64,000 nt of DNA from Kangiella sp. (GTDB taxonomy: Bacteria; Pseudomonadota; Gammaproteobacteria; Enterobacterales; Kangiellaceae). Shown one piece after another: positions 51,868-55,201 of the stretch. The notes beneath the pieces were generated by a model. The model was not told where the DNA came from, did no database searches, and saw only the letters and a list, made by a program, of their open reading frames with translations. The stretch spans positions 62,001 through 126,000 of the forward strand of contig JANQSG010000015.1 in the NCBI GenBank assembly GCA_028284185.1, read 5' to 3'. The translations under genes and the position numbers were made by a program. The number at the start of each line of letters is the position of its first letter. Positions within the stretch are counted from its first letter, which is position 1.

Positions 51868-52431
51868 ATGGATAATAATGTTTATCAGTCGCCAGAGAGC
51901 GATCTTTCTACTCGTGATGATGATGCTACTCAACCGGTAAAACTATTTAACGCCAGTGGTCGTATGGGACGTGTAAGGTATATTGCTTATACCGTTGGCT
52001 TGCCTATGCTTATGTTATTGCCAGTGTTCATCATCGGGTTTGTTATGGGACTTACCGGCAAAGGTGATTCTGGCAGTATTGGTGACGGAATTTTATTTTT
52101 AATCTTAGGGGTGATTTTTTATACCGTGGTAATTGCTGCGGCTATATGGGCAACTATTCAGAGATGTCACGATTTTGACACTTCCGGTTGGCTTACTTTA
52201 TTACTGATCGTTCCGTTAGTGCCTTGGATTTTCTGGTTTATTCCAGGAACTAAAGGTGAAAATCGTTTTGGACCAAAGCCAGAGCCTAATAAACCTATTC
52301 ACTGGATCGGTGCTACGGTTGCTCCAGTTTTGATGATAGTTGGTGTTTTAGCTGCTATTGCCATCCCAGCCTATCAGGATTATGTGGAGCGTGCTAAACA
52401 GGCTCAAATACAGTCTTATAACCAAGAGTGA
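51868..52431 (+). CDS. DUF805 family membrane protein with pilin-like C-terminal segment
   Basis: GRMGRVRYIAY...IQRCHDFDTSGW...FIPGTKGENRFG; C-terminal VGVLAAIAIPAYQDYVERAKQAQIQSY. Confidence 0.85.
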   Translation: MDNNVYQSPESDLSTRDDDATQPVKLFNASGRMGRVRYIAYTVGLPMLMLLPVFIIGFVMGLTGKGDSGSIGDGILFLILGVIFYTVVIAAAIWATIQRCHDFDTSGWLTLLLIVPLVPWIFWFIPGTKGENRFGPKPEPNKPIHWIGATVAPVLMIVGVLAAIAIPAYQDYVERAKQAQIQSYNQE

Positions 52432-52459
52432 TTGACAACAAATAAATTTTAGCTAGACT
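52432..52459 (+). promoter_or_regulatory. Candidate sigma70 promoter for the lysine leader
   Basis: TTGACA-N16-TAGACT; predicted start near 52466, at the leader ATG. Confidence 0.5.
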
Positions 52460-52466
52460 AAAGGCC

Positions 52467-52544
52467 ATGAATTTATCTACTTGTAATAAAAAACGTACTA
52501 AAAAGGTATCTAAAAAAGATGCTAAGGCGAACTATTGCGGGTGA
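52467..52544 (+). CDS. Lys-rich putative leader peptide MNLSTCNKKRTKKVSKKDAKANYCG
   Basis: 25 codons, 7 of them Lys, followed by a terminator and the aspartokinase/DAP decarboxylase gene; absent from the ORF track (too short). Confidence 0.65.
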   Translation: MNLSTCNKKRTKKVSKKDAKANYCG

Positions 52545-52563
52545 AAAATTAATCACATCATGT

Positions 52564-52592
52564 TAAAAACCCGCTTAAGGCGGGTTTTTTTA
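52564..52592 (+). terminator. Rho-independent terminator/attenuator before the LysAC gene
   Basis: AAAAACCCGC-TTAAG-GCGGGTTTTTTT. Confidence 0.85.
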
Positions 52593-52621
52593 TAGTTACT
52601 AAAAAATACTACGAGAAGGTA

Positions 52622-55201
52622 TTGGCAATGGATCATAACAACTCTTGGCAAGTGTTAAAGTTTGGTGGCACCAGTGTGTCCTCAAAAATCAATTGGGATA
52701 ATATTGTTGCTATTGTTAAACATAAACTCGCCAAGAACAAAAAGCTTTTTATTGTTCACTCGGCTTTGAGTCAAGTGTCTAATCGGTTGGAAGCCTTGGT
52801 TGCTTTGGCTGAAACGGGCGATAAGGCTGCATATAAGAAGCTTCTGGAGCAAATTGTTCAACAGCATCAGGATTTGGTTGGTGATTTGTCGGTAGATGCA
52901 GAGTTATTAAGTGAAAATTACCAATATCTTCGTGATTTGAGCGATGGTATTTATTTGCTCGGAGAAGCCAGTGATAAAAGTAAAGCCAAAGTAATGGCAC
53001 AAGGCGAGTTATGGGCCACTAAAATTGGTCATGCCTATTTACAGCTACAAGTTTCTGGGCACCAGACATTATGGTTAGAAGCCTCGAAAACACTAAAAGT
53101 TATTGATGAGCAGCAGCAAAGCTATCTTGCAGCTAATTGTGTTTTTGCTCCAGATTCAAAGCTTCAAGAGCAGGTTAGTAGCTATGATCTGGTTATTACT
53201 CAGGGTTTTATTGCGGCTAATAATGAGGGTGACATTTTATTGTTAGGGCGTGGCGGTTCAGATACCTCAGCAGCTTATTTTTCGAGTAAATTGGAAGCAG
53301 AGAATCTGGAGATTTGGACTGATGTTGAAGGTGTTTTTAGCGCCAATCCGCAGCAAGTCGAAAATGCTCGATTGCTGACACATTTGAGTTATCAGGAGCT
53401 GCAGGAAATGGCATCGGCTGGAGCCAAAATCATACATCCAAGAACCATTAAACCATTAAGGCAAAATAATATTCCACTCTATATTCGCTCAACCTTGTCG
53501 CCAGAATTAGCTGGAACCGAGGTTAATCAAGGTCAAAGTACCGTTGGCATGGTTAAGGCGATTAATGCTAAGCGTGGCGTGACCTTAATTTCTATGGAAG
53601 CCATGAATATGTGGCAACAAGCGGGCTTTTTATCGGATTTGTTTACCATTTATAAAAAGCATCAAGTATCAGTGGATCTGGTATCGACCTCAGAAACCAA
53701 TGTCACTGTGACCTTAGATAGCTTAACTCAGACTTTAAATCCAAAACAAATCGGGCAGTTAGTGGCTGATTTGTCTAGAGTTTGTCAGGTTGCAGTGTTT
53801 AATGAGTGCGCTGCAGTTTCTATTGTTGGGCAGAATGTTCGCTCCAGCTTGCATAAAATTGCTCCAGCTTTATCTATTTTTGAAAGTTACAAAGTTTATT
53901 TGATGTCACAATCGGCTTCAGATTTGAATCTTACTTTTGTTGTTGATAATGAGCACTGTGATAAGGTTATTGCTTCGTTACACGAGACTTTAATTAGTAA
54001 TAACCCTAATAGTCAACAATTGGGGCCGACCATTTCCGAGCTAAGAAAACTTCATGCTAGTGAAGAAACAAACTATTGGTGGCAGTCTAAGCTGCCAGCG
54101 ATTCACGATTTAATGCAACAGCAGGATTCCGCTTACTTATATGATTTATCAGTTGTTGCCAATAATGCTCAAGAATTAAAATCAATTAGTGCGGTGGATG
54201 AGGTTTTTTATGCAGTCAAAGCCAATAATAACCTGCAAATTTTAGATACTATTTATAAACAGGGTATTAATTTCGAAGCGGTTTCAGTTGATGAAATTAG
54301 GCTGATAAGAAAGCAGTTCCAACAGAATGATTATCGAATATTTTTCACGCCAAATTTTGCCGCAAAAAAAGAGTATCAAGAAGCTTTATCTTATGAAGTT
54401 ACTCTTTGTTTAGACAGTAGCTATCCTTTGCAGCACTGGCCGGAAGTGTTTGCTGGCAAAGAGATTTTTCTGCGCATCGATCCCAATGTTGGTAAAGGTC
54501 ATCATCAGTTTGTGAAAACTGCAGGTGCTTCATCCAAGTTTGGTATTCCTCAGTCAGAACTGGAGCAATTAATTCCTATACTAGCCAAGCATCAGATCGA
54601 GGTTATAGGGCTGCATGCCCATGCTGGAAGTGGTATTTTAAATAATGACCATTGGGCTGAACATGCGCAATTTTTAGTAACATTAGCGTCTCAATTTAGT
54701 GGTGTTAAGTACCTAAATCTGGGTGGGGGCTTTGGTATTAAAGAAAGGGAGCAACAAACGGCGCTGACCATGAAACTGGTCGATCAGCATTTACAGCAAG
54801 TGAAAAAAGATCACCCTGAATATGAGTTCTGGATCGAGCCTGGTCGTTTTATGGTGGCTAATGCTGGTGTGTTATTGGCTAAAACTACTCAGGTAAAACA
54901 AAAAGATAACTACTATTATGTAGGCCTTAATACTGGTATGAATTCGTTAATGCGCCCAGCACTTTATGGTTCATATCATCCAGTTTTTAACCTTAGTAAG
55001 TTTGAACAGGCTAAGGATAAACTGGCAACCATTGTTGGTCCAATTTGTGAAAGCACCGATAAACTGGCCATAGAAATTCCGTTTCCAGTAACTGAAGAAG
55101 GTGACTTGGTTTTAATCGATAATGCGGGGGCTTATGGCCACGTTATGTCAAATCATTACAATTTACGCACGCCAGCTAAAGAGTTTTGTTTAGAGGTTTG
55201 A
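52622..55201 (+). CDS. Bifunctional aspartate kinase / diaminopimelate decarboxylase
   Basis: N-terminal aspartokinase (VLKFGGTSVSS; GFIAANNEGDILLLGRGGSDTSA) and C-terminal PLP decarboxylase (YAVKANNN; HAHAGSGI; NLGGGFGI; GPICESTDKL). Confidence 0.95.
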   Translation: MAMDHNNSWQVLKFGGTSVSSKINWDNIVAIVKHKLAKNKKLFIVHSALSQVSNRLEALVALAETGDKAAYKKLLEQIVQQHQDLVGDLSVDAELLSENYQYLRDLSDGIYLLGEASDKSKAKVMAQGELWATKIGHAYLQLQVSGHQTLWLEASKTLKVIDEQQQSYLAANCVFAPDSKLQEQVSSYDLVITQGFIAANNEGDILLLGRGGSDTSAAYFSSKLEAENLEIWTDVEGVFSANPQQVENARLLTHLSYQELQEMASAGAKIIHPRTIKPLRQNNIPLYIRSTLSPELAGTEVNQGQSTVGMVKAINAKRGVTLISMEAMNMWQQAGFLSDLFTIYKKHQVSVDLVSTSETNVTVTLDSLTQTLNPKQIGQLVADLSRVCQVAVFNECAAVSIVGQNVRSSLHKIAPALSIFESYKVYLMSQSASDLNLTFVVDNEHCDKVIASLHETLISNNPNSQQLGPTISELRKLHASEETNYWWQSKLPAIHDLMQQQDSAYLYDLSVVANNAQELKSISAVDEVFYAVKANNNLQILDTIYKQGINFEAVSVDEIRLIRKQFQQNDYRIFFTPNFAAKKEYQEALSYEVTLCLDSSYPLQHWPEVFAGKEIFLRIDPNVGKGHHQFVKTAGASSKFGIPQSELEQLIPILAKHQIEVIGLHAHAGSGILNNDHWAEHAQFLVTLASQFSGVKYLNLGGGFGIKEREQQTALTMKLVDQHLQQVKKDHPEYEFWIEPGRFMVANAGVLLAKTTQVKQKDNYYYVGLNTGMNSLMRPALYGSYHPVFNLSKFEQAKDKLATIVGPICESTDKLAIEIPFPVTEEGDLVLIDNAGAYGHVMSNHYNLRTPAKEFCLEV

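Follow-up and report, generated by a model that had tools for sequence, protein, structure and literature searches.

The window, that is, the whole stretch of 64,000 nucleotides analysed here, belongs to a Kangiella genome of 2.5 Mb and carries on its forward strand lysAC (52628..55201, ATG at 52628), the gene of a fused aspartokinase/diaminopimelate decarboxylase, uniting the first and the last enzymes of lysine synthesis. This assignment, made earlier in the sequence-only reading, is borne out by the match of the product to NCBIfam model NF006515 (1143.5 bits, cut-off 802); for the kinase half, the nearest single-function aspartokinase model is that of lysine-sensitive aspartokinase 3. The sequence AGAAGG (52614-52619) precedes the lysAC start codon. 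The upstream neighbour (51868-52431) encodes a membrane protein that weakly resembles pilins in its C-terminal stretch (NF007862, E 0.00043, far under the cut-off), and its stop codon lies directly 5' of the promoter described below.

Between the two genes, a sigma-70-type promoter (52432..52459, forward strand) consists of TTGACA (52432-52437), a 16-nt spacer and TAGACT (52454-52459), and its -10 element ends 7 nt before the ATG of a short open reading frame. The same arrangement is present in 17 of 18 Kangiella loci, with TTGACA/T, a spacer of 16 or 17 nt and TATATT or TAGACT (AAGTAT in two), placed 6-8 nt from the ATG; the promoter of the remaining locus, L009, differs. Because the -10 element lies so close to the start codon, the mRNA that encodes the leader is probably leaderless, with transcription starting at or very near the AUG. 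In the available text of PMC10117765, the Sinorhizobium meliloti trpL leader is likewise leaderless. The short ORF (52467..52544, forward strand) encodes MNLSTCNKKRTKKVSKKDAKANYCG in 25 codons, seven of them for lysine and arranged with three KK pairs, precisely as first reported. In 20,000 dinucleotide shuffles of 52432-52621, an ATG ORF of 15-45 codons with at least seven Lys arose in 1.6%, and one of the same size that also had at least three KK pairs arose in 0.17%. Stronger evidence for the leader than these statistics is its conservation in 19 genomes: a Lys-rich ORF occupies the same place in 19/19 Kangiella lysAC loci. Codons for the end product of the pathway are thus enriched both in the window (7/25) and across the 19 species, where lysine makes up 24.6% of the pooled leader residues, compared with 6.3% in the long ORFs of the window. 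Leucine comes next (8.4%), so that lysine is genus-wide about three times as frequent as any other residue. At least one KK pair is found in 18 of the 19 leaders, and these pairs persist across the genus, also with exchange of AAA and AAG. The leader of locus L018 (genome G030), MNCIFVNAQIAMKQMMKMSKQDVPIVCAR, has only three Lys and four internal Met, for which reason its signal is doubtful and may have shifted.

The leader RNA can adopt mutually exclusive protector, antiterminator and terminator pairings, all on the forward strand, and the elements of the three pairings and the T-run named in the sequence-only reading were found in their places. Segment 1, ACUUGUAAUA (52479..52488), is the outer protector arm and pairs with segment 2, UAUUGCGGGU (52533..52542), which overlaps the end of the leader ORF and can pair alternatively with segment 3. 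In the antiterminator of the window, GCGGGU (52537-52542, within segment 2) pairs with segment 3, ACCCGC (52569..52574), of which CCCGC is invariant in 19/19 sequences. Segment 3 also pairs with segment 4, GCGGGU (52580-52585), which is followed by the T-run; the resulting intrinsic terminator (52565..52591) has an 11-bp stem, AAAAACCCGC with GCGGGUUUUU, eight aligned pairs of which are kept in 19/19 sequences. It lies between the leader ORF and the structural gene in the window and in 19/19 homologs. One element had been overlooked: inside the 1:2 stem, an inner protector hairpin, GGUAUCU-AAAAA-AGAUGCU (52505..52523, arms 52505-52511 and 52517-52523), encloses Lys codons and pairs in 19 species. 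The minimum free energy fold of the leader comprises the 1:2 stem, the inner hairpin and the terminator, at -31.3 kcal/mol (z -4.17), and none of 200 shuffles folded as well. The antiterminator of the window has only 6 bp and -9.8 kcal/mol, against -14.4 kcal/mol for the terminator. The earlier placement of all Lys codons between segments 1 and 2 is right except for the first of them (52488-52490), which shares one base with segment 1.

LysAC is encoded in 19 of 20 Kangiella genomes, and in all 19 of these the Lys-rich leader ORF and an intrinsic terminator, CCCGC...GCGGGTTTTTT, stand directly upstream of lysAC; this count includes genome G026, the leader of which is split at a contig end and completed on another contig. 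The remaining genome, G031 (99% completeness), has neither the LysAC fusion nor a strong leader match and keeps a single-function aspartokinase and lysA. A covariance-model search of the Kangiella genomes gave one strong match per LysAC genome, at lysAC, and no second strong copy save the second part of the G026 leader. Three forms of the leader can be distinguished: the main one ends KKALKKRVLxCCG, that of the window, L019 and L020 ends YCG and has a short terminator loop, and that of L006, L009 and L018 ends CVW, CAW or CAR. Beyond the window species, only two relatives keep the exact 1:2 pairing proposed for the window. In L019 and L020, the counterpart of segment 1 is AUCUGCAAUA, and none of its 10 positions has lost its pairing; the stem differs by three C/U changes, each on one side only and facing a G. 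In the main group, the role of the 1:2 stem is taken, beside the inner hairpin, by a middle stem, CACAGCA/UGCUGUG, which pairs in only 87% of cells.

Two elements make up the consensus fold of the 19 sequences: the terminator and the inner hairpin, which spans the Lys codons. All 95 cells of the inner hairpin are paired in the 19 species, with compensatory changes in four of its five pairs. Taken jointly, the inner hairpin and the terminator pair in 247/247 cells, compared with 94.7% in shuffles, and show both-side changes in 14 cells, compared with 3.0; slid versions of the structure pair in 26-64%, and none of 500 column shuffles and none of the slid versions reaches the true alignment in cells paired. 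The antiterminator core, UGUGGGU/ACCCGCA, is paired in 91/91 cells in 13/13 main-group species and shows no covariation because it is nearly invariant.

The switching behaviour of the leader was examined in a folding model, a thermodynamic proxy and not kinetics, in which the nascent RNA is folded at a stage when segment 4 has yet to be made, and the ribosome occludes 13 nt, starting at the first nucleotide of the codon in its A site. In 18 species, the predicted probability of the antiterminator is 0.78-1.00 with the ribosome stalled in the KK block and 0.00-0.20 with the ribosome at the stop codon. On this model, a stall at the regulatory codons would free segment 2 and a ribosome at the stop codon would mask it. 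Three Lys codons that are N-terminal and not part of a KK block are less permissive (L012 K2, 0.02; L015 K9, 0.55; L017 K2, 0.70). For 17 species, the switching pattern arises in 1-6% of shuffled leaders; the test is uninformative for L012, since the Lys codons there begin at K2. For the truncated window transcript without a ribosome, the model predicts 59% antitermination, and, without translation, both protector and terminator would be expected to form in most species.

The features described above point to a ribosome-mediated transcription attenuator of the trp/his type that senses charged tRNA-Lys upstream of lysAC, a reading to which we assign a probability of about 0.88. The geometry suggested at the outset has held, with the Lys codons, the protector hairpin, the choice between antiterminator and terminator and the position before lysAC all kept. 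It is proposed that transcription begins at or very near the leader AUG, as the promoter spacing suggests. When lysyl-tRNA is plentiful, the ribosome would reach the stop codon and cover segment 2, and the 3:4 terminator would form before lysAC. Under a shortage of lysyl-tRNA, the ribosome would stall on the KK codons and cover the 5' arms of the protector hairpins; segment 2 would then pair with segment 3, and RNA polymerase would read through into lysAC. In the folding model, a stall at nearly any codon before the last four to six antiterminates, and specificity for lysine would therefore depend on codon content alone. This would also suit an attenuator that senses how fast translation runs in general, or more than one amino acid (lysine together with Arg, His, Leu or Met), with lysine merely the commonest. 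Such sensing would fit the conservation of R, H, A and L in KKHSKKALKKR, the Met-rich leader of L018 and the Thr/Met/Lys leaders that precede lysAC in some other gammaproteobacterial MAGs. However, the genus-wide excess of lysine and the KK pairs in 18 of 19 leaders speak against it, as does the Thr run used by thrA of the same genome, and we consider it unlikely.

Two further explanations take the ORF or the RNA out of attenuation altogether. KK-rich peptides can bind nucleic acid, and the C-terminal KKALKKRVLxCCG is conserved in the main group, as would be expected if the ORF encoded a functional small basic protein that merely lies 5' of lysAC and ends in its own terminator. Yet the peptide diverges strongly (in L006, L009, L018, L019 and the window) while compensatory changes keep the hairpins, and on this ground the small-protein explanation is set aside as highly improbable; moreover, the conserved C-terminal codons coincide with the protector and antiterminator arms, and the ORF is always found at lysAC, without a second strong site. 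Of the observations that had been named in advance as damaging to the attenuator, two were looked for and not made: Lys codons are present in 19/19 leaders, although one has only three, together with the alternative pairings, and the RNA model found no second strong, unrelated site in any genome of the genus. That the strongly folded, conserved leader with its terminator is a new ligand-binding riboswitch or a protein-bound leader, with an incidental ORF, is just as improbable, given that the Lys-codon ORF and its stop overlapping segment 2 are kept in 19/19 loci and that the RNA has no large conserved junction, aptamer-like loop or Rfam match at gathering score. At that score, no Rfam family was matched in the window, including the Thr, His, Leu, Trp and Phe leaders and the T-box; the best sub-threshold scores, lying mainly over the terminator, were Phe_leader 25.3 (cut-off 55), Trp_leader 23.4 (41) and Leu_leader 18.8 (50). 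The L-box riboswitch (RF00168) can be rejected, as its covariance model found none in the window or in 40 genomes of the family and did find it in four reference genomes used as a positive control, including E. coli and B. subtilis.

A natural positive control exists in the same genome. The thrA gene is preceded by a Thr leader of the classical type, MKTFYTLTTTTTTTFHLEVSG, with a terminator, AGCCCAGGACCTGAAAATCCTGGGCTTTTTTTT (L168, G000:C10, minus strand). In the folding model, it gives a similar but weaker profile, with the antiterminator probability falling from 0.65 to 0.01, and it may be leaderless too, because a -10-like sequence lies a few nucleotides before its ATG. The Rfam Thr_leader model stays below gathering score at this leader. 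In the window genome, inspection by eye and an ORF scan showed no leaders before the single-function aspartokinase gene, the metL-like gene or lysA.

Few genomes of the class (14/369) encode LysAC, and the leaders found before it in other lineages differ from that of Kangiella. In family f200 (loci L136, L137 and L138), a different Lys-rich leader, MIGMCAKRKVEKKEVSKKLGSAR (seven Lys), MRSMTSKCKRVKQEADSKKLFPAR (five) or MRFISKCKPAIKEAGSDVLFIAR (three), is followed each time by a terminator and then lysAC, and the antiterminator is GCCGG/CCGGC; this leader is possibly of separate origin. In the Woeseiaceae-like family f187, the leaders end (K)KHIKxMARQRCVGAxGNxTG, 25/30 of them having Lys at position -3 and 21/30 having it at -6; one sequence with this type of leader, L094, is labelled Woeseiaceae. 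Woeseiaceae-like lysAC loci (L133, L139-L166, L081, L088, L099, L103, L107 and L110) have nearly invariant leader DNA, GGCGCGCCAGAGGTGCGTGGGTGC, with conserved Lys, in which CACCCACG, at an early position, is complementary to CGTGGGTG, and GTGGGT to the terminator ACCCGC; such pairing would be another attenuator geometry. At five other MAG loci (L052, L067, L069, L090 and L096), lysAC is preceded by apparently leaderless Thr/Met/Lys-rich leaders, e.g., MATTTRGMTTTMMATGKRAVSGLAVPMV, which possibly sense several aspartate-family amino acids. On folding, the stop-codon state of the Woeseiaceae-like and the Thr/Met/Lys leaders is less clean. KK-rich short ORFs at several other LysAC loci were rejected as leaders, since they appear to be the end of the upstream gene (GKAAWSKLEEVLADKKL...). 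We lean slightly towards the view that lysine-sensing leader-peptide attenuation is a recurrent and undescribed control of lysAC, in which case the differences in leaders between the lineages would mean that the sensed amino acids have been re-tuned from one to another.

With the E. coli trpL, hisL and thrL systems, the lysAC leader has in common a short ORF rich in codons for the product, exclusive pairings, a stop codon at segment 2 and a site before a biosynthetic gene; it differs in that the regulatory codon is that of lysine, the gene is a fused aspartokinase/diaminopimelate decarboxylase gene and the mRNA is probably leaderless. The L-box upstream of lysC in other gammaproteobacteria also controls an aspartokinase of the lysine pathway, but it binds lysine directly through an aptamer of about 180 nt and has no leader ORF. 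The survey of proteobacterial attenuation by Vitreschak et al. in 2004 reportedly does not list lysine. In a survey of 2005, lysine appears with the L-box, and the amino acids given for attenuators are all others (PMC1262725); the lysC of Shewanella is preceded by an L-box (PMC2659441). As far as the available text of PMC10117765 goes, S. meliloti trpL shares with the lysAC leader a leaderless attenuator ORF, but its codons are those of tryptophan, its gene is trpE and its host is an alphaproteobacterium. The Sinorhizobium SEP5 sORF, suggested in the same text to be a leader with six Thr and three Lys codons, is similarly short and translated and precedes a gene of aspartate metabolism, but its codons are mostly Thr, the gene is a different one, and that text describes no attenuator structure for it. 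In agreement with the sequence-only reading, a lysine leader-peptide attenuator, on a LysAC fusion or otherwise, was not found in the literature searched, which consisted largely of open-access papers, and this absence is not proof. Within the papers searched, the mechanism is thus known, and the amino acid and the gene are new for this type of attenuator.

Lysine has served in textbooks as the amino acid that a riboswitch senses, and a lysine attenuator would fill a gap. It would explain the control of lysAC in Kangiella, where no L-box is detectable, and the system would suit the study of leaderless leader peptides and of the exchange of regulatory codons between lineages at one gene.
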